Assembly: GCA_029204225.1 (NCBI GenBank)
Contig: CM055111.1
Coordinates: 45,893,255-45,957,254 of the forward strand
DNA from: Diphasiastrum complanatum
Lineage: Eukaryota; Streptophyta; Lycopodiopsida; Lycopodiales; Lycopodiaceae
Reading direction: 5' to 3'
Length of the DNA: 64,000 bases
Part shown: positions 7,408 to 64,000 of the stretch, in pieces
How the letters are laid out: every line of letters begins with the position of its first letter
Position numbering within the stretch: position 1 is the stretch's first letter
Notes under the pieces: model-generated
What the model saw: only the letters and a program-made list of their open reading frames with translations
What the model was told of the DNA's origin: nothing
Databases searched by the model: none
Program-made: the position numbers and the translations under genes

Positions 7408-7650
7408 TGAACTCCAACACCTTCTACATCAGAAACCAGCAACCTTGTCCATGCTTAGATCCCTGCAACAATATTACAATTCTTTAAACATATCTGAGTT
7501 TCTACACACTGACCAGAGCCACATCGTTGGCTACATCATTCCCAAATCCACGAGCTGCTAGCCTCGCCAATCACTTGTCAACAAACACACTCACAGACCT
7601 GGATTCGATTCTATTCAAGCTCACGCTCCACCCATTCCACACGCTGAATT

Positions 7651-8990
7651 CTCAACCAGAGTCCAAGCTTCGAATCTCAACCGGAGCACAACTCCCATCT
7701 CAATCGGTGCACCTCTTGAAACCTCAACCGGAGGGCCTCATCAGATCTCAACCGAAACCCAACGCTAAAATCTCAACCGAAGCCCAACGCTGAAATCTCA
7801 ACCGAAGTCCAACATTGAAATCTCAACCGAACCCAACGCTGAAATCTCAATCGAAGCCCAACGTTGAAATCTCAACCGAAGCCCAACGCTAAAATCTCAA
7901 TCGGAGCTCTCTTCAGATCTCAACCGAAGCACAACTTCGAATCTCAACCGGAGCTTTAGCTCAGATCTCAACCAAAGCACCGCTTCAGATCTCAACCGGA
8001 GCATCCAGCTCAATTCTCAACCGGAGCCCAAGCTCAAATCTCAACCGAAGCTCTCGCTCCCATCTCAACCGGAGCTCCAGCTCAAACCTCAGTCGGAGCT
8101 CACGCTTCAATCTCAGCCGAAGAGATTCTATCTGATCTGAACAGCCACGACCATATCACGTAACCACTATCGCGTTCCATCACAATACTCACTACCATCA
8201 CAAATCGCATTCCACATTATGACATTACACTTCATTCCCATTCCATCACACACTCCACACACCTGCCTTCGCCCATCGCAGCCGCATCAGACCGCAATCA
8301 AACGACCCTACGACTGCCATCGGACACCCTCACCGCAATACCCAAACTCCACCCCCACCCGTTTTCGTCCCACACAACCACCATCGCCCGTCACAACTGT
8401 ATACAGGCCGCCCTCATTCTCCCTATGGCTACCCTAGGCCACCTTCATCGTAACAACCTGCATGCATTCGCATAACACCGCAAGCACTTGCCTCACGAAA
8501 TACCCCATTACACCATTGTGCACACTTCCATCAAAAGTCATAGACCGCAATCCATCGCAATCACACCAAATTGTGCCCGCCTTCCATCATAACAGCACCA
8601 CACCGCATTAGATCGCAATCCACCAACTTTGACCTGCAACGATCACCTCAACATCACCCGCATACACTCGACACTATGCACCCCCACAACATCGCAACCA
8701 CGTACCATCCCATCACAATCATCTACAAACATATCTCTCTTCCTCTCCGCCAGACCTTCACACTCCTTCCATTCTGTCAGATCTCAACCGGAGGCCTTAG
8801 TGCAATCTCAACCAGAGCACCTTGCTCAAATCTCAACCGGAGGCCTCAGTGCAATCTCAACCGGAGCACTCTGCTCAGATCTCAACCGGAGCACTCAGCT
8901 CAAAACTCAACCGGAGTTCAGGCTCACATCTCAACCGGAGTGAGTTATTCGATCTCAACCAAAGGAAGTCGCTCAAATCTCAACCGACGG
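7651..8990 (+). repeat. Minisatellite-like leader repeats (TCTCAACCGGAGC units) of element A
   Basis: About 29 imperfect copies of aTCTCAACCGRAG occur in two clusters, 7651-8124 (about 20 copies) and 8782-8990 (9 copies), spaced roughly 20-30 bp. Between 7745 and 7905 the unit extends to a 25-27-bp tandem form that includes GCCCAACGCTAAAATCTCAACC. The whole leader to 9768 is rich in C and A and poor in G on the sense strand. It contains no convincing ORF, and short ATG-led frames here are not gene-like. The role is unknown: an unstructured leader, a packaging signal, or a protein-binding array. Confidence 0.85.
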
Positions 8991-9632
8991 ACTAGCTCCC
9001 TATCCACCCGCACTCCGTCATTGTAATCGCATGCCACCCATTCATCCACAGACGTAACCAACTGCAATACACAGCAACACCTGCCCTTCCCCATCGAGAC
9101 CACACTCCATCGCATTTCATCGCACCCTTGCACTCACCCTATGCCTACCTTCGTCACCTCCAACCACCAATCAACCATCCTTTACTCACATTCGCACAGC
9201 ACCGTTGACACCGGACCCTGCCATTCATACTGCCACAATCCATTGTAGCCGCAATCACCACAACCACTCCCGTATCCCGTAATCACCAACTCCACCATAA
9301 CCCTTGCACACCACTTCCATACCTGCTTTCGCCAGGCATCGCAATTGACCGCCATCGACCACCACGATCGCAACACACAGACACATCCCGTCACAGCCGC
9401 ATCCAACCGCAATTATACCGCCATAAGGCTACCCTCAGCCACCTTCACAACATTCCACCGCCATCTGCCCAAGAACGATCACACTGCCCTACAAGCGCAC
9501 TACAGTCCAACCATCCCATCCCACTTGTCCATCCTAGCAATCGCAACAGGCCGCATACTACGGCCCTACGACTACACTCGGTTGCCCTTGCTCACAACAG
9601 ACCGCCACAACCGCAATCACCCGCACCCCTGT

Positions 9633-9661
9633 AACCGTAAACCGTAAACCGTAAACCGTAG
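9633..9661 (+). repeat. Short CCGTAAA tandem repeat
   Basis: About four 7-bp units of the CCGTAAA type occur just before an A-rich stretch (9665-9760) that leads into gag. The unit differs from the plant telomere complement CCCTAAA by one base; it may be coincidental. Confidence 0.8.
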
Positions 9662-9768
9662 GGACCGCAAAAACCCTCAAAAAAACCAAAAAAAAAAAAA
9701 CAAAAACTTACAAAAACACAAAAAACTCAGAAAATCCAAACAACAATAAAAAAACTCACCAGTACCCA

Positions 9769-11115
9769 ATGGACCAACAAAACAATCCTGAAGTCCCAGA
9801 CAATTATCCATACGAGATCAGGTCTTTTGAAGCTGAACAAATCAGACGTCATAGGTTCTACCGAATGAGAGCCGAACTCCAAGAGCCATCCACAAACCCG
9901 TTCGATGGACAAGAACCTGATAGAGCCGAGTCTTCATGCGCACGACCTCGTTTTTATGGTGCTGACCCCTCACAGGCCAGAACCAACCTTAATGGAGTCC
10001 CTGCTACCCACGGAGCTCCTCTTGAGAGACGTACACCAAAACTAGACCTACCAAAGTTTGACGGTAGTTTGGACCCTCAAAGATTTTTGCAAATCTTTGA
10101 GAATGCATGTGATGTATATGGCGAAATATCCCCCGACGCTATGGTCCAACTATTTTTGATGACCATGATCGCTAAAGCACAAGATTGGTTTTTCAACCTT
10201 GATCGTGACAAAAAGACAGACTGGTCAATTTTGAAAGAGTCCTTTATCAAGTATTTTAGGCCCTTTCGCTCGGTAGACAGCCCTTTTGTCAAATTGAGTA
10301 ACATCAAGATGACAAAAGACGAACACGTACGAGACTATATTGAGCGTTTCAAAAGTTTCAAAAGTCAAGTACAAGAACAGCCCTCCGAACACATGCTCAT
10401 CATCTGGTTCTTAGTCGGCCTTCCAAGATGGATTAGATGTGAGCTTAAATCCAATGACGAATATACGAGTCTAAAGTTAGCTATGTCTGATGCCATCAAG
10501 GAAGAAGACGAAGGATTAGATGTTGACAAATCCAGGGAAAGACGAGCACCATGTGCTCCTGTCCGTGAGTCAACATCGATTGAGGACACGGGAGATTAGC
10601 TTTGGAAATCATAGTTGGAGTTGCTTAATAAGCAACATCAACTACAAATGGAGAAACTCACCAATGAGTTTCAAACTACCTTGAAGTCTATCCAAAGTAG
10701 TATGTCTGATCAGTCAAACCCTGCACAGGTACCTTATAGACGAAAAACAATATGGTGCCCACACTGTCGGGCTACGCATCCTGTTGATGCTTGTCCTTCA
10801 TATCGACCTATTCAAGCACATACAGCTCAACAATATGAAGAACACCCAGCACAATCTGGAAATGCCTTGCCTTATCATGAATATCCACCAACAAGTCCAA
10901 AACCACTAGCCATACAAGATGGCTACGCCGTTATACAAGGGCCACTGCACACCAGATGTTTCATCTGTGGTGAAACCGGCCACTTCATGGTTGATTGTCC
11001 AGTTAAGACCTAGTACCATGCTGAGTGTCCCGACTGTATCCGAAAACACAGTTTCAAAGAATGTCCAAAACAACTAACTAAGATCCTATTTGCCCGTCAC
11101 ATCAGTTATGAATCA
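9769..11115 (+). CDS. gag: Gag of element A (capsid plus three zinc knuckles)
   Basis: It reads from ATG at 9769 (MDQQNNPEVPDNYPYEIRSF) for 276 codons to a TAG at 10597. The same frame resumes after a few codons (10615) and runs to a TAG at 11011; a third knuckle follows in that frame. The capsid core (residues about 85-220) has LDLPKFDGSLDPQRFLQIFE, a W in AKAQDWFF, and VRDYIERFKSF, typical of plant gypsy gag. Knuckles: CPHCRATHPVDAC, CFICGETGHFMVDC and CPDCIRKHSFKEC. A coiled-coil-like QLQMEKLTNEFQ segment joins the two parts. Only two stops interrupt it, so it is the best-preserved gag in the window. Function: particle formation and RNA packaging. Confidence 0.9.
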
Positions 11116-27674: not shown

Positions 27675-28976
27675 TTAATCTGGATCCGTGAATGCCTTGA
27701 TCTTCAGACTAAGCAATGCACAAAATTTGTTGTGTGCATTAACATTGAGTGCTTTCGTGAATATGTTTGCAACCATGTCCTGCGTTCTGCAGTACGTTAA
27801 GCTTACTTCCTTGTCGAGAACCTTGCCTCTGATGTAGTGATATCTGATTTCAATGTGCTTACTCCTAGAGTGAAATCTAGGGTTGGCCAATAAGGCAATA
27901 GCACTTTGATTATCACAAAATAAAATTGTAAGGCTGTACTGATTCAGATTAAGATCTGATAGCAAATTTCTCAACCAAAATGCCTCCTTGATAGATTGAG
28001 AAGCAGCAATGTATTCTGCTTCTGAAGAAAAAAGTGCGACAGAAGTTTGCTTACGACTGTTCCATGAGATAGGACTGTCGTTGAAGAGAAATGTAAATCT
28101 AGATGTGGATTTACAATTTTCTACATCTCCTCCCCAACTTGCATCAGAATAACCACTGAGCTGATGGAGATTGTTGTTGCTGACATCTCCATAGCAGATG
28201 CACTGGTCCATGGTAGCTCGAATATATCTCATGACTCGTATGAGAGCCTTCCAATGGGTAATGCCAAGATTAGCCATGTATTGGCTGAGTGAGCTTATAG
28301 CAAAAGAGATATCTGGTCTTGTACAGACCATTGCGTACATGAGAGATCCTAGTATCGATCGATAAAGGTATTCTCTCATTTGCTCCACTTCTTGCTTGGT
28401 CTGGGGACATTGGTCCTTTGATAGATGCAAGCCTGGATCCATTGGTGAGTGAGCTAATCTACAATTCATTAAATTGTATCTGCTAAAAACATTGTGAAGA
28501 TACCTTTGTTGAGTGATATAAATCAGTCGATTTGCTCTGTCTCTGTGGATTTGAATTCCCAGACAGAAGTTAACTTCGTCCAGATCAGTCATATTGAACT
28601 CTGAAAATAGCACCTGTTTCGAATCCTTGACCATATTGGTATTGTTGCTGAAGAGCAATGTATCATCCACGTATAAGGTGATGATAATGAAGGACTGCTG
28701 CACTGACTTGGAATAGACGTTGCAATCAGCAGTGCTTGGTTTGAATCCTTGTTCAATGAGTAATGTGTTGATCCTCTGGAACCAAGCTCTGGAAGACTGT
28801 TTCAAGCCGTACAGTGCTTTGTGGAGTTTACAGACATGATTCTTCGTCCCTTCTAGAACATATCCTTCGGGTTGAATCATGTAGATATCTTCTTGTATCA
28901 CTCCATTCAGATAGGCTGTTTGTACATCGAGTTGATGCACTTTGAGGTCAGTAGCTGCAGCATAAGACAAGAGCAT
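27675..28976 (-). CDS. pol: RT-RNase H of copia C5, uninterrupted 433 codons
   Basis: Copia RT: HQLDVQTAYLNGVIQEDIYM, LYGLKQSSRAWFQRIN and the active site LYVDDTLLFSNN. RNase H: YSDASWGGDVENCKSTS, LFSSEAEYIAASQSIKEAFW, DNQSAIALLANPRFHSRSKH and MVANIFTKALN. All catalytic residues appear present and there is no stop over 1.3 kb, unlike every other pol in this window. It is preceded without a clean start by a truncated integrase, so it is the 3' part of a polyprotein, not a separate gene. It stops just before the polypurine tract. Confidence 0.93.
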   Translation of the reverse strand: MLLSYAAATDLKVHQLDVQTAYLNGVIQEDIYMIQPEGYVLEGTKNHVCKLHKALYGLKQSSRAWFQRINTLLIEQGFKPSTADCNVYSKSVQQSFIIITLYVDDTLLFSNNTNMVKDSKQVLFSEFNMTDLDEVNFCLGIQIHRDRANRLIYITQQRYLHNVFSRYNLMNCRLAHSPMDPGLHLSKDQCPQTKQEVEQMREYLYRSILGSLMYAMVCTRPDISFAISSLSQYMANLGITHWKALIRVMRYIRATMDQCICYGDVSNNNLHQLSGYSDASWGGDVENCKSTSRFTFLFNDSPISWNSRKQTSVALFSSEAEYIAASQSIKEAFWLRNLLSDLNLNQYSLTILFCDNQSAIALLANPRFHSRSKHIEIRYHYIRGKVLDKEVSLTYCRTQDMVANIFTKALNVNAHNKFCALLSLKIKAFTDPD

Positions 28977-30850
28977 TCAGATCAACGAATGTTTGACGAC
29001 TGGACTGAAAGTCTCACTGTAGTCGACATTTGAGATCTGCGTGAATCCTCGTGTTACTAGTCTTGACTTTCTTTGATCAATTGCTCCGTTGCATTGACTG
29101 AGGACTATAAGGAGTGATGAATTGTTGCTCAATGCCTTGGCTTTGGCAGTACTCCTTGAACTCGATAGAGATATATTCTCCACCGTTGTCTAACCTGAGG
29201 GCCTTGATCGTCCTTCCAGTCTCCTTCTCTGCTCCTTGAAGATTCTAAAGCAGTTGAAGCTTTGGATTTCTTCTTTATGAAATACACCATAGTTCTTCTA
29301 GAAAATTCATCAATAAAGGTTATAAAATACTTGGCATCCTTCAGCGAAGGATTTTTCATCGGGCCACAAATATCTGAATGTACAACATCTAGCAATCCTC
29401 TAGCAACATGTTGATGGCTTGATTTGAATGGTTTCCTAGTCTGTTTACCAACTAGACAGTCTTGACAGACATGTAACTCGACTTTTTCACAAGGATAGTC
29501 GAGATCAAGAACAATAGATTGTCTAGACATTTGTTGTACAAGAGCATGATTTAAATGACCAAGTCTATAATGCCAAAGTAAACCTTTATTTAAATGAACT
29601 AAAGTACTGAGAGCCTGACTAGCGGCAGAAAAGCAATGACTCAATTTGTACAAGTATCCATGCCTCTTTCCGAGTCATATCAACTACTTTACATTGATCA
29701 CATTCGAATTCTACTCTGTGTCCTAGATCTTTGATTCTGCTTACAAAGAACAGATTTGTAGATAAATTTGGTACATAAAGGACTTTTGAGAGTAGCTTAG
29801 ACTGATAATTAGCAAAGCTTAATCTTACAGTGCCTTTACCTTTAATAGGTTGTGTGCTATTGTCACCAAGGTGGACATATTTTTGGGTATTGTAAGGTGT
29901 ATAGGACTCGAAACAGCCAATGAGGCTAGTCATATGCTGAGTGGCTCCGGAATCCAGGAACTAAGAACTGTCGTCAGATGCTCCTTGATGGCTAGTCATG
30001 AAGGCATCATGATCCATTTCTTGAATAGGCTGTGGAACTTCTGCAGCTGTATTTTCCACTTGATTCGACTGCCCCTTGATGTTGTTCTTTGCTTGAAGTA
30101 TTCGACAGTCTTGTATTTCGTGATTGTTTTGTTTGCAATATCTGCAAAATAGCTTCTTCTTTGTCTGCGGATTCGACTGTTCCTTGTGTTGAGCTGGTTT
30201 CTAGTCTGGATTTGATTGTTTTGGGCCTCTCTTCTTCTAACGATTTGTCGAGCTCTTGTTGGTGTACAAGGAGTGAGAATCAGCTGAGGAACTTGAGGCT
30301 TCATTTCTTCGCGTGTCTTCCTGCAACAACATAGTAATCACTCTCGAAAGAGTCAATTCTAGATGAGTCGTGATGATCATCACCCAGCTGTCATAAGAGC
30401 TTGGCAAACTTGTAAGCAGTTGCATCACTATGTCTTGATCGTCAATGACAGATCCGACAATGACCATTTGTCTTAGCAGGCTCTTGAATTGATAAATGTG
30501 ATTCTGCAGAGAATCACCATTCGTCATCTTGAGGGAGTAAATTTTTTTCCTAAGATGTAGCTTGGAAGCTATATCTCGCACTTCGTATAGTGTGCTCAAG
30601 ATGTCCCAGACTTCTTTCGATGTCTAAGCCTTGGATACATGGCCGATCTGGGTATCCGTGATGTTGAGGATGATCAGCACGAAAGCCTTTCCATCCTTTA
30701 GCTTCCATCTGGCGATTGTTGCATTGTCCACTTTGGAATTCCCTTCTACACCTGTAACAACATCATACAATTCTTTTGCCATTAGTTGCCGTTTCCGGGG
30801 AGCTACGCCAATTTTTGAGTATGCAGCATGTTTGTTGGATGGTTAGCTTG
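28977..30850 (-). pseudogene. Gag, protease and partial integrase of copia C5
   Basis: Reading from 30850 down: gag (UBN2 type) with NGKAF-like start lost, then DNATIARWKLKDGKAFVLIIL, IYQFKSLLRQMVIVGSVIDD and LLTSLPSSYDSWV. A zinc knuckle reads CRYCKQNNHEIQDC (about 30125). The protease has FLDSGATQHMTS (about 29950). GAG-pre-integrase has LLWHYRLGHLNHALV and CLVGKQTRKPF, and the integrase begins HSDICGPMKNPSLKD. The second half of the integrase core and the RT start are deleted or frameshifted (29000-29260). The 5' LTR and primer site are missing at about 30850, where the G2 leader begins. Confidence 0.88.
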
Positions 30851-52813: not shown

Positions 52814-54142
52814 TTTGAATGTCCTATTGAAGGCATAGGGAACATTCCCTTGATGCTTGCATCCTCTAAAGTTCTTTCTCTCTCTAAAGTTCTTTATGTA
52901 CCTAAGCTTACCAAGAATCTTATTAGTGTTGGCCAATTGCTTGATAATGGCCTTGATGTAAAATTCAATGTTGATACTTGCACTATCAAGAAGAATGATG
53001 AGATACTTGCATTAGGATCTAGATTTGCTGGCATCAATAAACTAGATCCAAATGAGTATGTGAATGCTTGTAATATTGCTCTTGTGAACAAGCTCTCTAT
53101 GGAGGAATTATGGCATAGGAGGTTGGGACATCCCAACTACAAATCCATGCTCTCTATGATCAAAGAAGCCAAAGCTATTGGCTTGCCAAAGTCACTCTCC
53201 AAGAAGATCAAGCCTTGTGAGGCTTGTGCTATTGCTAAATCTCACAAAAAGCCATTTACAAGATCTTCTATCAAAAGCAAACATCCTTTGGAGTTAATCC
53301 ACTCGGATGTGCATTTCTCATCAACTACAAGCAAGGGAGGAGCCACTTGTTTTGTTACTTTCATTGATGATTACACAAGATTCACTTGGATATATCTTCT
53401 TGCTTCTAAATCTATGGTGTTTGATCATTTCCTTATTTTCAAAGCTTATGTAGAGAAGCAATTCTCATTCAAGATTAAAGCTCTTAGAAGTGATGGAGGT
53501 GGTGAAAATATCTCCAATAAATTTCAAGATTTTTGTGAGCTTGAAGGCATTAAAAGAGAGTTTTCTTGTGCCTACTCTCCATCTCAAAATGGAGTGGCCA
53601 AGAGAAAGAATATATCTCTATGTAAATGTGCAAAATCTATGAGAATTGAGACATCTTTGCCCAAAGTTTTTTGGGGAGAAGCCATTAATTGTGCAAATTA
53701 TCTTTGCAATAGGCTCCCACATATAGCTCTAGGAGGAAAGTAACCATATGGAATCTTATTTTTGAAGAAGCCTAAGGTTGATCACCTTAGAGTTTTTGGA
53801 TGCTTATGCTTTGTCCATATTTTCTTGGAAACAAGGAAGAAGGAAGATCCTAGTGCATGCAAAGGGATCATGGTTGGATACTCATCCACCAAGAAGGCCT
53901 ATAGAGTCTTTATACTCTCTACTTCTCAAGTTATTGAAAGTAGAGATGTTGTCTTTCATGAAGATCAACACTCATCTTTTGAAGAGGCCGAGATCAAGAA
54001 ATCTATGGATGCATCATCAATTATTGATTTTGAAGACAATTATGATGTGATGGAGTCGAGATTTGAAGAAGACTCTCGTCGGATTTTCTCACCAAGAAGA
54101 TCCATGAGACTAAATAGTGTTTGTACTATTTTTGGCAATTAG
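52710..54142 (+). pseudogene. Protease to integrase of copia C7 (3' half)
   Basis: Continues C7 from the 104-bp repeat. Protease IDSGASSHMCSS; GAG-pre-integrase ELWHRRLGHPNYKSM (about 53110) and CEACAIAKSHKKPF. Integrase core: HSDVHFSST, FVTFIDDYTRFTW, LRSDGGGENIS and SPSQNGVAKRKNIS. The last should be NGVAERKN, so the catalytic Glu has become Lys (codon AAG at 53600-53602). It is open for 335 codons, then a TAA at 53741 and a frame step, then VFGCLCFVHIFLE, GIMVGYSSTKKAYRV and PRRSMRLNS. It ends at 54142 without RT. Confidence 0.92.
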
Positions 54143-54654
54143 ATAAGTTGATGATGTCGGATTTGGACCCATTCTAATTGGCTAAACTTGATACATTGCA
54201 TGAAGTATCTAGAAGTTTCCAATTTAGGTCAAGTTCAGGACAAGTGGCCAAATGACACCTTGGAAGCTATAAATAGTTGTAGTTGTGTAGAGAAATAATC
54301 ATCAAAGTTTTTTTTTTTGGTGGAGAATTCAACTCTTGTGTTTCTATGTCCATCTCATGTGTATTTCTCTTGATATCTTGGTTTTCTGTGTAGACAGTTG
54401 ATTTTATCATAGATCTAGCTTCCACACGTGTGAAGTAGGCTGCTACTATTGTACAAATATGGACAATAACTTACTGTATTTTCATTCTTATGATTAGATC
54501 TTAGTGATTTATGCAATTCTAGCATGCTAAAATTGATTATTTCTATCTTGTAGATAAAACTAGATGTGGATCCAAATTCGGTTGATCTTTAGGTGCTTGA
54601 GGCCTCTCCTCCACACCTACAACAATATCCATCACATTAGAGGAGTTCTCAATA
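54143..54654. other. LTR-like tail after C7
   Basis: No gene. TGTCGGATTTGG (about 54154) to CACCTACAACA (about 54629), with a TATAAATAG box at 54270 and a CACACGTGTG at 54423, looks like a short LTR of about 475 bp. No second copy or target duplication supports it. Confidence 0.35.
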
Positions 54655-54669
54655 TCAAAAAGACCCTTT
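54655..54669 (+). repeat. Left terminal inverted repeat
   Basis: TCAAAAAGACCCTTT; matches the right end over 15 of 15 bases. The bases further inward diverge. Confidence 0.6.
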
Positions 54670-55100
54670 GTAAAGATAATTTTATTTTTTTTCTTTAGTT
54701 TCGACCGTCACCAGGCCCAATCAAAATGCACAGATTTGAAATCTACGTAACGTAGTTCATATTAACTAAAAAATAAAAATGCAACATAGAAAACTTTGAA
54801 ATTTGTGTCCAGACAGCATGGACGTATCCCATTGGTTTCTTTTTCCTGCCCGACACGTGCTAATCTGCCCGACGTCAATATCTCAAGTTAAATTTACTTT
54901 ACTATGCTGGTTAGTATAATGAAAATTTCTAACTATACTAGTTACATTTATAGAAATATAGTATGTACAGTTACATAAAATATGGTATATGCAGTAACTG
55001 TGACTATGTTGGCATTCACATTAGATTAAATGTGATACGAAAAATTAAAATCAAGTAACATATCAGAGAGATTTTTGGCGCCCAAGCTTTGAAAATAGCA

Positions 55101-56472
55101 ATGGCGAGGAGACCTAGATCTACAATCGATTTTGTGATTCTTTACAATGAGAAAGATGAAGCTGATAACTGGAAGCCAACAAAATATACGAAGAAATCAT
55201 GGGTATTGTTGCATCCATCATCAAAGGGCAATTTTCGACAAAAGAAAAAGCAAAAATGACTTACAAATCTTATTGGAAAGCAAAAATTTTAGAGTTTAAG
55301 ACTACCCCGGGAGGTCAATCGATATCAGAAGTCTTAGTGCAACATGTATATATGCATTCAGAAATCAAAGTACATGATATCAATTCTCATGATCATCAAA
55401 AATGTAATTGTAAGTATATCAAAACATATGCACTCTACAACAATCATAGGTGATTTTCTTTATTGATACTCTTCAGATTATGATTTAAATGCTTCAACAT
55501 TGTTTTTTTCTTTCAGATTTATATCCATCATGCATAAGTGAATGGGAGCCCACACAATCACTTGCAGGAATATTAGACGTGATTCACTCTGATGTTGAAA
55601 AGCTACAATACAGAGGAAGAAGTCCAAAGGGACTTGCAGATTGTGGTATCTATTTTTATGAATCTTTATATATGCCACAAACAGATGGAGGTTTTGGCAA
55701 GCTCGAAGCAATTCCATTGCCTAGTTTTCAAAGTGATGAGTGGCCTACTCCTGACAACATTGTTTCTGAATCCTTGAGATGCAAGCTACTCATTGATAAT
55801 AAAAATGCTATGAAGATAAGCACAGCCTCGAAAATTGTTCACCTAAGTTGGTTTATCTCATTGCATACATTTGTTGATTTCTTCTCGAGTGCTAGTGTTC
55901 GTAGGACACCAACTTTATTTGTTTGCAAGGATTTACCAGATGAGACTTTGTCAGATCTCATGGATCAAGGCTGAGATAGTAAAACAAATAATGACATAGA
56001 ATGCAGGATTAAAAAGTCCTCAATGATCTTTCGTTATCATATCGAAAAGCAAATGGTCAGTCTCCCATTTAGCTACCAGAGATACAAGAAAATTGAAGGC
56101 ACATGGCTACCACTGGATCAAGACTTTGAACTAAATGGTCACACAAACCGAATGGAGATAAGCATTATCTACAATGAGAAATATTTGACTATGGTTAAGG
56201 TGGAAGAGCACTGGAAGCTTGATTTTATCATAACAGAGCTCATGCTATTACAAACCAATCTACCAACATATTTCAGATTTATCATCAACGGAAGACTCGT
56301 AAGTACTTTATGTTTATTGCCATTTCAAAATAGAACAAAATAATAGAAAATGTCATCATTTACAATTGCATATTCACTAATATTTGCCGTGTCACAGATG
56401 CGAAAAAGACAGGAGCTGATAACGTGCTGCAAAGATCTACCTACAACAATCACCATTGTGGGAGAACAATAG
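55101..56472 (+). pseudogene. Transposon gene 1 (orphan protein, three exons)
   Basis: Exon 1 begins at ATG 55101 (MARRPRSTIDFVILYNEKDE). A one-base loss near 55163 moves it to the frame LEANKIYEEIMGIVASIIKG, which runs to the donor GTAAGT at 55410. Exon 2 (55517-56298) follows the acceptor TTTCAG and reads YLYPSCISEWEPTQSLAGIL, ADCGIYFYESLYMPQTDGGF, one TGA (55972-55974) and, in the same frame, MIFRYHIEKQMVSLPFSYQR and INGRL. Exon 3 (56398-56472) ends EQ-stop. The splice phases fit. AATAAA follows at 56519. A cluster HDHQKC...C hints at metal binding. I do not recognise the family. It is convergent with gene 2, 195 bp away. Confidence 0.6.
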
Positions 56473-56667
56473 TTTCAAATAAACTTTAGTAAAAATCTGT
56501 GTATACACCCTTTCATTCAATAAATGAAAGCCTAAGTTGGGCATCTATACATGTATTTTGTGTTCCCAAATTTATAAACTGGAGCAGCATTTGATATATC
56601 AATGTATATTTTTCTATGAAGTCTATACATGTATTTTTGTTCTATGTTATCTATATTTTTTCTGATC

Positions 56668-58397
56668 TTAATTTAGTAGTACTACGTCATCCTTTGCACC
56701 ATCATCAATAATGGGAGGCTGAAGCCTTGCCCGAGCCAGTATACTCAGGATAATTTCTTGTCTAAATCTATACACCTGGCTTGATGTGTACTCAGGAAGT
56801 GTAAACTGCAAAATAGAACATTCATGTATTAGTAATGGCCAATAACATCACCAGAATAGAAAACTAATCATGATTCCAAAATAAGAATAAACATAATTTA
56901 TTACCTTAGAAATATTGACATCTTGTTGAAGGATGAACCACTCAAAAAACAGCTTGACATTGTACAATGTGTACCACCCACAGCTGAATGAATCATTTTG
57001 CTGGGGTGACTGCAATTAATTCAGCACACAAGAAATCAATTATCAAACATAATGAATTAGATTGAAAATATTTCGTTAGAATACTGATTTCAAAATGCTA
57101 TTAAGAAAGACAGAGTTTACCTCCAAGTTGACGATCTGCCAGTCCACGGAATGGGGAACGTCTGTAGGAATATATTTACTTAGATATGGAATGAATATAT
57201 CTACATCCTTATGCGTATTTCTCGCCGAATTCATCTTGACACAAGAACATTTAATAATATTATTTATAGGTCTCTTAATAGAGATCAGGTTTAAACTCCA
57301 GTGGTCACTGCAAAATAAGATTGAAAGTAGTTTAGCGACAATTTTGAGAACTATTTAAATTGAAAATGTCAATGTTAATGCATAAAACAGGAAGAAGCAC
57401 TTAATATATCTTACTTGGTATGATAAGGAATGACCAAATACTTTGTTGCTGGTGTGAATCCACTTGTCAGACACTGTGACAATGTGTCATTATTCTCCTT
57501 GAAGGCCTGGAGCAGAAAGTTACTCAGCACCAGCAACTCGTTTGATGAATCTCTTGCAATGTCAAATTGCAAGAGTGTTAGCCCGGACTCTATCACAGGA
57601 TCACTGATAGAAGCCCCTCTGTCTTTGAGATCGAGACAATCTTGAACTCCAAAATTAATACTAAAATCAAGTTCTTCTAGTCTAAAACAAAAAGGAGTAT
57701 CAATTGTATCTATAGCATCCGATATGTCTTTCTCAAATTTAAGATAATCATCCAAATCTATATATGTATAGAAATTAGGAGGAGGAGGAGGAGGTGGAAG
57801 TGTAGTATCTACAACAATTATAGGAGTATCCAAAATAGAGGTAGCTATATTTACAGCATTATCAACAGCAGCATTATCTACAATGGATTCTGGGATAGGC
57901 TTCACTTTCTTAGGAGCACGCTTGGGGGCTGTCTGCTTCCTAGGACGTTTCGTAGGAAGATGAGTCCTATCTACAGGAGTTGGTCTAGGAGCAGCAGGCT
58001 GAGACACGTGTAACCTACAGTACCTATCCCTCATTCTCATCAGAAGCTGAAAATCCTTGGGCATTATGGTAACCCTCTTGGTATGGATGGCAAGCAAAAA
58101 AGAATCCTAAAAAAAAAGAATAATATAATCTTCAGCAGCCTCCTGAATGCACTGAAGAGCACTCGGTGTGAATATAACATGCTGTTTGAGATCATTTCTT
58201 GTTATGTTCCGGACAGCACGGTAGAATGGAGCTCTTGGGATCAACAGAGCTATTTACCTCTGATACTTGCGTATCTCAGAGAGCCACCTACTACGGTTGC
58301 GCATTCTAGGTCTAGCAGGGGGTGTGATGGCAACCGTAGGATATGAGGATGAGCCAGGAGAGAAGAAGTCTCTCCTTGTCTGCTTTCTCCTATCCAT
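56668..58397 (-). pseudogene. Transposon gene 2: histone H3-like fold joined to Ulp1-type cysteine protease
   Basis: Four exons on the minus strand: 58397-57415, 57307-57121, 57009-56905 and 56805-56668, all with GT-AG borders and matching phases (about 470 codons). N-terminus: MDRRKQT (compare ARTKQT), then WLSEIRKYQR, IALLIPRAPFYRAV, SALQCIQEAAEDY and AIHTKRVTIMPKDFQL, the H3 alpha-N to alpha-3 order with loop 1 one residue longer, as in CenH3. Then a basic stretch KRPRKQTAPKRAPKKVK, a seven-Pro run and a linker. Exons 2-3 have HWSLNLISIKRP and QQNDSFSCGWYTLYNVKLFF: His, Gln and Cys of Ulp1/SENP, with Asn (VKMNS) where Asp is expected. Stops at 58254-58256 and 58107-58109 break the histone part. 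Confidence 0.78.
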
Positions 58398-59228
58398 GGG
58401 CATGAACTATGTGATAGTGGACTTGTGCATGAAGGTTAGGATGAGAAGGAAGGGATGATAAAGAACTCGCAGAGGACTGCTATGTACGGACAGAATGTAC
58501 AGTATATTGGACCTATGCGAGCCGAATATCAGAGAGAACGATTAGATTTGAGGAAAGACACACAAGTGCAATATGGGGTGACACGTAGGAAGACGTATCG
58601 GACCTGTGCACATGGAAGGTAGTAGGAGAAATTTTGATTGTGAAGGGCGCGCACAAATGCGATATGCGGAGCGAAAAAAAAAGTGAAAAAAATTCATCGA
58701 AATTTGTGATTTTATATCGGGGTTCGCACGTCGAAAGAACGTCTTGTCACACGTGTGAGAGTTGTACGGACAAATGCGAGAGCGACATGTGTCACCCTGT
58801 CACACTACACATGTGGGATTTGTACGATCGAATGCGAGAGTGACACGTGTTTATGAGCAATTGAATGAACACGCAACATGTGTCTAAGTGTCATTTCACA
58901 CGTGTGCAGGTGTCATCTCACACGTGCCTGCACCTGTTGTCGAATTGAAAGTAGACATGTGTCATAAGTCCATTGACCACATGTGCAAAAATTTAGTATA
59001 AATGACACGAAAATCGAATAATTTTTTACCTTTTGCGTTCTCAAAATTTGTGACATATCGCTTTTGTGCGCGCTCATTGCTGTCCGTTTGCTTGCAAATA
59101 TACCTACTCGCGCACAAGTGCGATATTCTGTATCTGTCTGCCGTACATATCCATCTTCTACGCCATTTTGATAGTTAGTTTTGGTTCAGTTCTCCCGCAA
59201 GCACAAGTGCGATATTCACGCTACTGCC
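58398..59228. promoter_or_regulatory. Shared upstream region of genes 2 and 3 with repeated motifs
   Basis: 831 bp between divergent starts. The motif CACAARTGCGATAT recurs at 58561 (degenerate), 58651, 59111 and 59201, and in inverse orientation at 59052-59073. Shorter AATGCGAGAGYGACAYGTG units lie at 58772 and 58831. CACGTGTG-type palindromes are frequent (58748, 58781, 58843, 58897, 58919). It is probably a bidirectional promoter or binding array for the transposase. Confidence 0.6.
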
Positions 59229-60741
59229 ATGGCCTCTTCCTCATCATCCTCACGAGAATCATGCTTGAGTTCATTTTTGAGTGAATTTGGGATTACTGAA
59301 AATCTGGACTACTTCCACAGCCTATTCAGGCCATATCTACATGTTTTCAGGACTGCACAACCAAATTCTGACGTATTTTATGAACATTATGTCAGATTCA
59401 GAGATATACTTAGCAAGCCTGTTTTCTCCATAGGTCAGCTCCAGTACATGCATTATACTAATCTTGTTCATTTCTTCCCAGCTTTTAGACATAGACTGGA
59501 TAGAATGTTCACCAAATTGTTTGATCTTTTCAAAAGTAGTTCTATGTGTTCGTATTGCAACAATAAATGTCGATTGGTTGAATATCAGAGTGGTTTCGTA
59601 CTTTTTCTTTTAGTTCAGATCCCAGATGATGATGAGTTTTCTATTGTTGACCCTACTTTTGCACCCTCCTCTGTTCAGTCAGCCATTAAGGATATCAGTC
59701 ACTTTCTTATCGACACTCCTGATAAAGAAAGTGACTTCATTGATTTAAATATGATGTTCTTTGGGATTCTTTCATTGGCCAAAATACATCTGATGATGAA
59801 TCCAAATCTATGGAGGATTCGAAATGTCTTTTCAATTTGCATGTATATTATATTAATGACGATGTACATTTTACTACTGCTGATTTATGTAAATTTTTTG
59901 ACTATCGTGAGGACGAGGTTCTATGTTTATTATCCGGCACAATTTCCGAATTCTCCGACTTTGTAGATTTTGAGACAGATGAGCTTGTTGCTGGTATTGA
60001 TTTTGATGATGAGAAGGGTCTTATGACCGGTGAAGAATGCCTGAATAAGACTTTATCAAATATGGCTGAGGATGGACGAGGCAGACCATCCGATGAAGAA
60101 TTCATGGCATTTCAGTCCCAGATGGGCTTCCCTCGTCCATCATTAATGCATTTCACTGATGATTCCACTTCAGTACGTGATCATTATATTGATCATCCTG
60201 ATCTGGTTGTTGTTGATGATGAAGAATGTGTAAGTGTTTAATATTCCTTGCATTTGAATGTTTTCAATCGCTGAATGTGTTTTTGCTAGCATATTTCCTA
60301 TTGCATGATGCTCTCATAATAGATGATTTTGCTGCGAGACGAGGTGGTTTCAAACAACACGCATACTCGTTCCAGAGGGACAATGGATTGGGCCACTATC
60401 TTCAGCATTTCTTGAAGAGTGAGATCTGTACTGCTCACTCCAAGCTGAGCCCAGTCGGGGAGAGTCTTATAATGGCAGTTAAAGCTTTATCATTTCATTT
60501 AGGACATAAATTTGTTAAGACAAATAAGATCATTTTTGTCAAAAGATCTTATGTTTTGAACATTTTAGGCTTTACTGATGGGAATGTTCCTTTAAGGAGC
60601 TCCCATTATTCATTGTATTCCACTTATATTGAGCTTAGTGGAAATAAAAATAATGCACATCTATTAGATGCATACGCTAGCAGAGAATTTCTTCATGACA
60701 ATACTACTATAGAATCTGATACAAGATCTGATGACGAATAG
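59229..60741 (+). pseudogene. Transposon gene 3 (orphan protein, two exons)
   Basis: The start is ATG 59229 in a good context (GCCATGGCC): MASSSSSSRESCLSSFLSEF. An in-frame ATG at 59181 lies inside the repeated motif and is less likely. The first part has QLQYMHYTNLVHFFPAFRHR and SSMCSYCNNKC (Cys cluster). A one-base loss in the A-run at about 59781 shifts the frame to SMEDSKCLFNLHVYYINDDV and then acidic text. Donor GTAAGT at 60230, acceptor TAATAG before 60323; the phase is off by one. Exon 2: DFAARRGGFKQHAYSFQRDN, ILGFTDGNVPLRSSHYSLY, ending TRSDDE. I do not recognise the family. It is convergent with gene 4, 201 bp away. Confidence 0.6.
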
Positions 60742-60942
60742 TTGACACTTTGTATAATACAATCAATACATTTACATTGGGTATTGCTCATCTCTTGTTC
60801 AATGAATTTGCAAAGCAATTTTGAACATGTCATGATGATCTTCTACTCAGCAATGATGATCTTCTACTCAACAATCATCTAATTTTCTCTTCCTGTATGA
60901 ACTTGCATGCTTTTCTAAACTTGTTGTATTGTGTGGACTTTG

Positions 60943-63535
60943 TTATATGTCGAATCTGAACTCTGCGGTAGAATCATCAAAACAATTGACAAATGTAGTT
61001 TCGTTTTTCATTGGTTCCTCCATGTTGTGTATTTCGATGAAATGCTGCTCATGCTTGCCAGTGTGACTTCTCCATCCTTGTGAAGACCATACACTCAAGC
61101 TTCCATATGTATTTGCAAAAAATGCTGTATGATCTCTTAGTATGTGCTGCATATGTCAAAATCATAATGTTAGTCTTATGTTTAGATCTAAATATATATG
61201 AAAATTTGAAAGCATTTTGAAAATTTTATTCTAACCATGTAATGAGTGATGTGATCTTCTCCCCATGCTTTTGATATTGCATTAACAAACTCAACACAAG
61301 TCCTTTGGACAGCTTTCTTATCAATATCAGAGTATTTTTCTTTTCTTAAAATAGCAATCATACTATCAAGCTTTTTCCATACATGAACTTTTAGTACTCT
61401 GGTTTTGCCGTCTTTCTCGAAGTCCTGAGTGGCAGCAATAATATCTGTCCAGACTGAGTGTTGAATATTAGAAGCCTTACCAGTATGATTTGATAGAAAA
61501 CGACGTGCTTTTGCTCCTCCTATGCTTGGCTTAGTTGGCATGTTCCCATTCTTTCCTGAAAGCTTTTCATCTTTTTGAATTTTGACATGTCCTTTATGGA
61601 GTCCTGCTTTTGATAAAACATCTTCTAATTGAGAGATAGCTTCCTTTGCTAATGATGCTGGCTTTATGAAGATAAATGATCTTTTCTATTCATCTAACTT
61701 CTGCATGAAGAGTGCAAACATGCACATTTTTTAAGGGGATAGGCAGCACAGGCTTCCAATTTGAATCTGCATATTCTCTAGTAATTCCTGTACTCCTAGT
61801 TACATCTTTTTCCATTTTCATGCAGTACAAACAAGGGTGTTTTGATGTAGCACCGTGAGAGACATTATACATACATTTCAATGTTTTCAAATCACCTGCT
61901 AAGTGCCATTCAACATTGAAGTCTCCAACTCCTGGAACATTGAGAAATCCTCCATCCATATGGTCCTTGATGATCCTAGGATAAGATGTCCTCGAGAATA
62001 TCCATGATAATATATCATGATCCTCTTTCAGCGCCTGTCCAAAGAATTAATCATACTTAGTTTACAATGTATTAATACTATTCAATGAATGTAATGTAAT
62101 AATAAGGCTAGTTACCTGAAACGCTGCCAACCACCATATATCATTTTCTGACTGGACACTGAATTTGAAATCTTCTTGGTTCTTTGTTTGGGATAGAGCA
62201 CCATTCATGAGAGTTATACTAACCCTTTCCATCTTCTGCCCTTTCACAATTTTTGACTCATCTAACTTAAGTACTATGATTATTTTGCCATTCACCTATT
62301 CATAGGTTATATCATAGAATGTGACGATGTATCTTAGCAAGTAATTTAGATCAACAAATAAATTGTTTGATGAATTATAGAATATCGATCTTCTATCAGT
62401 TTCATACACCTCCTCAATATGAAATGGAGTTCCAGTGATCTTATGCATACCTATGTTTAATGTATCCCTCTCTTTTTTCAAGTGGTATGTCCTAGGGATT
62501 GAGACTTTTCTAATTTGAACTTGCTTAAAAGCTTCTCTAATTAGTTTAAATATTGTTGCAAATGCTTCCCTACTAATACCTGCAAAATCACAAGCACCCT
62601 GAACTATAGTCTTATCTAAAATATTTTGAATGTCCAACATTAAAGACTCTGCTATTTTACACTTTACATTTGAAATCCTATTGTTCATCATGATACGCTC
62701 AGTGGATTTGCAAGTCAATATTGTGCCCAATGACATTCCTAGTGAAGCATTGTCTTTAATATTCCGAGGAGCTACTAATGCAGATCTGCAAAAAAAATAG
62801 ATAGTTAATAGAATATCACCATAGCTGAAATTAAATCCAAATGTCATTGAAAAACTTACAAAATTTAGAATATGCTTACTTGAATGCACGGATTCTTCTA
62901 ACCTCCTTTTGAAAGCGTTTGAATATCCTTGCAACTTTGTCACTTTCACTTCTTACTTTCAGCCTTCTTCTTTACCAAATCCACATCCTTCAGTAATTGT
63001 AAGTTTTCAATACGAATAGACTGTAAGATTGATTGCATTTGCTCTAGTTCAGATTTGATATTGATTGCTATCTTCTGTAATGATTCATTATTTTTTTTAA
63101 GTTGTTCATTTTCTTCTAACGTCTTTTGGAGATGATAATCTCTATTTTGACAATAAGAGGATATCAGAATTAACTCACCTTCTAAAAAGTGAACTTTATT
63201 CATATAAAGTTGTTTTTCATGGTTTTGCAATCTTTCACAATATCCTAGTAATCCACTATGCCCATTGCATATCCATGTAACTAAATGAGTTATTAAAGAG
63301 AATGTGGGATGTGTCAAAGTGCTTGGATCTTGTGGATATAATGTTCCATCTGTCCACAAATCCACGTTTTTCTTTCCTTCTGCCCTATAACGAGAATGAT
63401 CTTCAGCAGATATTTGAACTCCTTTGCCTCCTCTTCTCTCCAAAGGTGCCAAATCAACAGGGATATCCACATGTAGATGATATAATGTCATCATCAAAAA
63501 AATAATAGAGTAATCAGTTGCATCAAAGTACTATG
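60943..63535 (-). pseudogene. Transposon gene 4: transposase-like protein
   Basis: Minus-strand exons: about 63535-62903, 62785-62116, 62034-61237 and 61146-60943; two donors are GTTAGA. The N-terminal part has a long coiled coil (LEENEQLKKNNESLQKIAIN). The core has VLKLDESKIVKGQKMERVSI, GGFLNVPGVGDFNVEWHLAG then DLKTLKCMYNVSHGATSKHP, the zinc-like CLYCMK, and CTLHAEVR. The end has YMHILRDHTAFFANTYGSLS and VWSSQGW. The D...GDLK...CxxC...LH order resembles RNase H-fold transposases with a zinc insertion; this is inference. Breaks: frameshift at 62946-62949, TAG at 62296-62298, and a TGA plus frameshift near 61690. The 5' exon may reach further towards 63735. Confidence 0.6.
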
Positions 63536-63985
63536 ACCAGATTCTATGAAGCAAAATAAAATACTCATCTTTGATTATATTATATACTATGTATGATCAA
63601 TCCAATCTCCATGCTTGTATGCTTGATTCAAATTTGGAAATGCCACTCATTTTTTCATTCCAATAGGTAGTTGGCACTCATATTTCCATTCTCGTGGAAG
63701 GAATGCATATGTAAACATTTTGCAATTTTTCCTGATTCGAATTTGGGGATGGTGGTCATATTCTAGATCCAGTGAAAATATTGTCCTTTTCGTAACCAAT
63801 GGAGGGAATATTTTTGAGTTTAGTCAAGTTATACTGCGAACTGTTAACAGTTCTTAACTGTGACTATAGACACTGTGGTTAGATCATTGGGAGTTGGGGA
63901 GGCCTTGGGAGTGGTGTGGGCAAGCAAATAAACAATATTGTTTTATTTATTTTGATATTTTTGTATATCCTACATGGCATTCCTT

Positions 63986-64000
63986 AAAGGGTCTTTTTGA
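63986..64000 (-). repeat. Right terminal inverted repeat (window edge)
   Basis: AAAGGGTCTTTTTGA, inverse complement of 54655-54669. It may extend beyond the window. Between gene 4 and this end (63540-63985) I see no gene apart from a possible short 5' exon (63670-63735); AACTGTTAACAGTT at 63839 is a palindrome. Confidence 0.6.

Follow-up and report, generated by a model that had tools for sequence, protein, structure and literature searches.

Among plant mobile elements, MULEs carry Ulp1-like genes, while the anti-silencing genes of VANDAL elements go with short motifs that recur in the non-coding parts of the element itself; we know of no H3 part in either the plant MULE Ulp1-like genes or the VANDAL genes. 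In the stretch of Diphasiastrum complanatum DNA analysed here (64,000 nucleotides, hereafter the window), a single gene model codes for both a histone H3-type domain and a Ulp1-type domain, bearing out the claim of an earlier note that the two parts belong to one protein. The explanation that we hold with somewhat more belief than doubt is that this is a decayed gene that once encoded an H3-type histone with a shortened tail, connected by a basic linker rich in proline to a Ulp1/C48 domain at the C-terminus. The model runs on the minus strand from 58397 to 56668 and comprises four exons, 470 codons and three in-phase GT-AG introns (99-111 nt), with the following features:

57415..58397, minus strand: exon 1, from the ATG at 58397, with the H3-like domain, the basic/Pro-rich linker and the edge of the Ulp1 domain
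58371..58397, minus strand: start MDRRKQTRR, like the H3 tail start MARTKQTAR (6/9 identical; by eye against P0001)
58029..58316, minus strand: histone H3-like domain, model residues 28-123 (PF00125; AlphaFold2 helices; Foldseek)
58254..58256, minus strand: first in-frame stop, TAA, in the histone part
58107..58109, minus strand: second in-frame stop, TAG, in the histone part
57753..58007, minus strand: linker at about model residues 131-215, Lys/Arg/Pro-rich before a Pro run (by eye)
57308..57414, minus strand: intron 1, 107 nt, GTAAGA...TTTGCAG
57121..57307, minus strand: exon 2, with the catalytic-His motif DHWSLNL (His codon 57303-57301)
57010..57120, minus strand: intron 2, 111 nt, GTAAAC...ATTGCAG
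56905..57009, minus strand: exon 3, with PQQNDSFSCGW (oxyanion Gln 57000-56998, catalytic Cys 56982-56980)
56806..56904, minus strand: intron 3, 99 nt, GTAATA...TTTGCAG
56668..56805, minus strand: exon 4 with the stop codon (56668-56670)

Present in the sequence as the earlier note had read them are the coordinates and strand, the order of the H3 motifs, the in-phase introns, both protease motifs (HWSLNL and QQNDSFSCGW) and the pair of in-frame stops. In its present form the copy is dead: the reading frame of the histone part is broken by two stops, both of them lying in model residues 1-124 and none in the other 346. The introns have a G+C content of 26-27%, as against 36-42% in the exons, and the codon periodicity of 57415-58007 is matched by none of 1000 mononucleotide shuffles; by the same kind of shuffling, periodicity is weaker in the H3 part and in exons 2-4 (p 0.024 in each case) and absent from the introns (p 0.57). 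The gene would presumably have been transcribed and spliced as modelled. We also considered by hand whether the stops could belong to an intron and rejected this, as the 151-nt intron so defined is out of frame and its removal would excise H3-matching helices; the context of the first stop is donor-like, AGGTAAAT, and that of the second acceptor-like, with a T-run followed by AG. A tblastn search recovered no second copy of the gene in the window (remaining rows E >= 0.42).

In the profile check that had been proposed for PF00125 and PF02902, the spliced model lies above both Pfam cut-offs: it matches PF00125 over residues 28-123 with 92.4 bits (E 3.3e-26; Pfam cut-off 26.4) and PF02902 over residues 316-441 with 41.8 bits (E 1.5e-10; gathering cut-off 20.7). 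When the unjoined pieces were scanned separately, three of the six matched either family: the H3 piece between the stops, which is above the Pfam cut-off alone (E 6e-9), the H3 end piece (E 9.8e-5, 23 bits, below the 26.4 cut-off) and Ulp1 exon 3 (PF02902, E 8e-4, 19.7 bits, below the 20.7 cut-off). The 47-residue piece preceding the first stop, the exon 2 piece and the exon 4 piece matched neither family alone. Downstream of the second stop, an open frame of 231 codons (57411-58106 with its stop codon) begins within the last helix of the H3 domain and runs stop-free and codon-biased to the first splice donor. Because this frame, when left unspliced, matches only histones (in Pfam and among the best 60 of 178 PDB rows), the case for a fusion depends on the gene model with its in-phase introns, together with a gain in the PF02902 score. 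Exons 2-4 alone score 34.2 bits against this profile and reach 43.3 bits (+9.1) once the real end of exon 1 is prepended, as opposed to 34.2 bits with a shuffled end, a thin control consisting of one shuffle; the end of exon 1 alone (the last 120 residues of the 231-codon frame) matched no Ulp1 family.

In the histone part, AlphaFold2 places helices at residues 37-44, 55-69, 78-105 and 113-131, in a model that was built with nine aligned sequences and has a pLDDT of 70 overall (pTM 0.49), rising to 82-88 in blocks from residue 51 to 120. The best 50 of the 420 Foldseek rows at E <= 0.001 are all nucleosome or histone entries, and the best 60 of the 191 PDB rows retrieved with the H3 part are all H3 types. 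At the sequence level it is identical to ordinary plant H3 at 47 of 93 aligned positions (about 50%), to Arabidopsis and maize CENH3 at 42 of 85 and 47 of 98, to CENP-A at 39 of 88 and to Cse4 at 38 of 90, a comparison that spans four CenH3 sequences. By alignment score, ordinary H3 (205) comes before the two plant CENH3s (186 and 176), Cse4 (168) and CENP-A (165). The aromatic residue of loop 1 is a Phe, as in H3, whereas three of the four compared CenH3s have a Trp there, and the loop has one residue more than that of H3. Of the H3/CenH3-like fold that had been claimed, the H3 fold stands, on the evidence of PF00125 and the predicted fold, whereas a likeness to CenH3 in particular is not shown, with the best score for ordinary H3, the loop-1 Phe and about equal identity to H3 and Arabidopsis CENH3; by these comparisons the histone part is no more clearly a CenH3 than it is an H3. 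When columns were ranked by falling conservation across 11 other H3-type proteins (P0005 being left out), the H3 residue was found to be kept in 11 of the 12 nearly invariant columns and then in 24 of 37, 9 of 29 and 3 of 17, that is, in 35 of the 49 more conserved as against 12 of the 46 less conserved columns (Fisher p 1.3e-5). This looks like the pattern that a histone under constraint to keep its fold would show.

The Ulp1 part was aligned to solved Ulp1/SENP chains, namely yeast Ulp1 (1euv, E 0.0016), 6dg4 (E 0.002) and SENP2 (1tgz, E 0.077), and retains the active-site His330, Gln394 and Cys400. The triad of the Ulp1/C48 proteases, His-Asp-Cys with an oxyanion Gln, is nonetheless incomplete, as the Asp is absent. 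The earlier note had an Asn replacing it: the loss of the Asp is borne out by all three alignments (Asp in 0/3) and the Asn is a fair reading, yet what they place opposite the Asp is Lys347 (yeast Ulp1), Val351 (6dg4) or Met353 (SENP2), with Asn354-Ser355 lying one residue past Met353, the SENP2-aligned triad position. An active protease is unlikely to be made from this copy because of the two stops and the missing triad Asp.

A protein search, in which 2917 candidates out of 5.77 billion were scored and a length rule kept out H3 proteins of ordinary length, returned nine matches with E <= 10. All nine carry H3, and none of them matches PF02902 at E <= 1. The statement that no described protein has both parts is in keeping with this, there being no other H3-Ulp1 protein among the nine matches of the 2917 candidates; so far as this limited search and IMG/VR go, the architecture was not found elsewhere. 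P0001, the top homologue (147 bits), was rejected as a relative of the fusion, being two H3 copies in tandem. The best row with a single H3 is P0002 (63/177 identical), with P0003 and P0004 scoring slightly above it across the fold alone. P0002 is a 391-aa H3-type protein whose loop 1 is long and whose tail begins with MARTKQTMR, and about its last third resembles, by eye, membrane or intron sequence. A virus origin was also considered and rejected: at the tool's sensitivity, neither the H3-Ulp1 model nor one piece of the partner gene described below has a relative in IMG/VR, and the one match of the right neighbour there (14 residues, E 2e-4) was taken as chance.

The H3-Ulp1 gene starts head-to-head with a divergent partner gene, which is also broken. 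The intervening stretch and the partner have the following features:

58398..58720, minus strand: TATA-to-ATG leader of the H3-Ulp1 gene, with a TATA-like site at 58716-58710
58401..59200, no strand: CpG-rich stretch, with a CpG observed/expected of 1.22, the top value among 317 800-bp windows, whose median is 0.43
58559..59215, no strand: six sites like CGCACAARTGCGATAT with <=3 mismatches, in both orientations (motif scan)
58987..59228, plus strand: TATA-to-ATG leader of the divergent gene, with a TATA-like site at 58997
59229..60741, plus strand: divergent partner gene, from the exon 1 ATG to the last-exon stop at 60739-60741 (reading frames)

The partner loses its frame near 59760 and has, by eye, an intron that ends at 60322 and measures about 93-95 nt; this lost frame and the two stops in the histone part leave the pair unable to function in its present form. 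It has no Pfam match at E < 0.1, its first part has no PDB match, PHROGs gave one weak row (E 0.028), and a single-sequence structure model was too poor for searching (pLDDT 52). The motif is secure in both leaders: all six CGCACAARTGCGATAT-like sites of the window lie within 58559..59215, where 0.6 are expected and none of 100 shuffles reaches six, a figure flattered by the pattern having been drawn from the same stretch. Furthermore, a 20-mer recurs with one mismatch 50-57 nt after each of the two TATA-like sites. As a motif common to the leader of the divergent gene sits before it, the ATG at 58397 fits as the start of the H3-Ulp1 gene.

Aligned in inverted orientation, the two leaders have a score of 347, where shuffles average 234; none of 1000 and none of 500 shuffles gets that far, and the best of 140 other local comparisons scores 273. 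Once the six motif sites are taken out, the remaining score is reached by 10 of 1000 shuffles under soft scoring and by 13 of 1000 under hard scoring. The likeness is largely the motif and is modest without it; the view that the leaders are plainly homologous is weakened, as about 1% of shuffles then reach the score. In the wrong sense, the leaders with their motifs also beat the shuffles under hard scoring (0/500), because the motif is nearly palindromic, and minus the motif sites they show no likeness in that sense. No likeness is seen upstream of the TATA sites (inverted sense) or in the coding starts; blastn between the leaders detects only the 20-mer and the motif copies, and their mafft alignment disagrees with the pairwise one. 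On balance, common descent of the two leaders is likely, and the gene pair may have been under common control. The CpG value of 58401-59200 is itself partly raised by the CpG-bearing motif, and other windows are not far below it, such as 7601-8400 (1.18) and 9001-9800 (1.12).

Several other segments of the window deserve mention. Just left of the H3-Ulp1 gene, on the plus strand at 55102-56480, are pieces of another unmatched gene, upstream of whose ATG is TTTTTGGCGCC, which we take to be E2F-like. On the minus strand, 61188-63530 holds the pieces of a broken gene with the segments GDLKTL, HPCLYC and CTLHAEVR, which are reminiscent of a DDE-type transposase carrying a C2/H2 zinc insert; these pieces have no support from Pfam, PDB or PHROGs. 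A retrotransposon of the Copia type, whose reverse transcriptase frame is long and open, lies on the minus strand at 27678-30623 (partly by eye), with 27678-28976 matching PF07727 at E 1e-47, and a second CpG-rich stretch, at 7601-10400, has repetitive reading frames beside a gag-like frame (by eye). Scans for other domains in 54301-64000 gave nothing notable besides the histone, and neither RNA families in 54000-64000 nor tRNAs in the window were found.

Three other explanations bear on how the gene came about. It is quite possible, if rather less so than not, that it was the cargo of a MULE-like element (of the KI-MULE/Kaonashi type) or of another DNA element carrying a Ulp1-type gene that picked up the H3, a scenario compatible with a decayed fusion gene. 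The window is dense in retrotransposon-looking frames by eye, with RVT_2 in the one frame scanned, and their look, like that of the introns, suggests a plant host; the Ulp1-like genes of plant MULEs and the right-hand gene, with what we assume to be its transposase-like segments, also speak for such a cargo. Against it, six frames of 54301-64000 contain no transposase family, in a scan that also missed the intron-split Ulp1 domain, and 53500-64000 has no convincing or long terminal inverted repeats and no transposase by the criteria for MULEs and KI-MULEs, where the element may extend beyond the window. The H3-Ulp1 gene may belong to a mobile element.

We consider a chance fusion unlikely, in which an H3 copy landed in front of a Ulp1-type gene already in decay and happened to read on into it, with no working protein ever having resulted. 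The restriction of both stops to the H3 part, the gene being the only copy known, the ordinary H3s that make up the best 60 of 191 PDB rows and the absence of a Ulp1 family match for the exon 1 end by itself speak for such an accident; however, the changes that have brought the H3 part to about 50% identity fall mainly in variable columns, suggesting time under selection, the motif of the divergent gene's leader also precedes the H3-Ulp1 ATG, and the frame past the second stop is open and codon-biased right up to the donor. A centromere factor, in which a CenH3-derived histone part would direct the Ulp1 domain to centromeres, strikes us as improbable. It is favoured by LLIPRAPF, EAAEDY, DS..L and KDF, which resemble Arabidopsis CENH3 or P0002, by the extra residue in loop 1, and by Foldseek row 45, a chain of the fission yeast centromeric nucleosome, along with rows 38 and 48, which are H3.1 with a CENP-A segment; but ordinary H3 outscores all four CenH3s, the loop-1 aromatic is the Phe of H3, and the remaining rows among the best 50 are ordinary nucleosome or histone entries. 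A centromere link is unproven.

Returning to a decayed gene that once made a histone joined to a Ulp1 domain, we propose that its H3 part would pair with H4, or be otherwise held in chromatin, and carry the Ulp1 domain there, so that SUMO would be removed from chromatin proteins; alternatively, if the loss of the Asp is ancestral, the Ulp1 domain might bind SUMO without cutting. Such a chromatin-held SUMO protease or SUMO-binding domain could alter the SUMO marks on chromatin proteins. Were the unit mobile, its gain would be an escape from silencing, which the CpG-rich, motif-bearing intergenic stretch would fit, CpG content alone being insufficient to show escape. At its most far-reaching, a long shot in our estimation, the proposal would have mobile two-gene units encoding a nucleosome-built "histone-tethered SUMO protease" that keeps their own CpG-rich, motif-studded divergent promoter unsilenced; that such units are an anti-silencing device posing as a histone is part of the same reading and as speculative. 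The join of a histone fold and a SUMO isopeptidase would put deSUMOylation physically inside the nucleosome, and intact relatives, if they exist, would offer a natural tool for studying how chromatin SUMO controls the silencing of mobile DNA.

Set beside known systems, the locus shares with canonical histone H3 (PF00125) the histone fold, the C-terminal AIH.KRVTIMPKD and the tail start M.R.KQT.R, and departs from it in its roughly 50% identity, short tail, longer loop 1 and long C-terminal fusion part. With the Ulp1/SENP SUMO proteases (C48, PF02902) it has in common a domain match of 41.8 bits and the active-site His, Gln and Cys; unlike them, it lacks the triad Asp and has an N-terminal H3 domain. 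As in the plant MULE Ulp1-like genes, a Ulp1-type domain would lie in mobile DNA, but no MULE transposase or termini were found here; as in VANDAL elements, repeated motifs occur in non-coding stretches. The likeness to an anti-silencing unit of the VANDAL/VANC type, in which a protein strips DNA methylation from its own motif, is judged here from CpG content and motif count. A parallel in domain composition among the nine matches is P0008 (394 aa, source tag lgn), which likewise has an isopeptidase domain and an H3 domain within one protein: a UCH domain (E 1.2e-37) is followed by an H3 domain (E 3e-33). It differs in that the enzyme is a ubiquitin hydrolase rather than Ulp1 and the H3 is at the C-terminus, and its UCH match begins at profile position 62, so that the protein may be partial. 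This UCH-H3 join hints that joins between isopeptidases and H3 may have arisen more than once.
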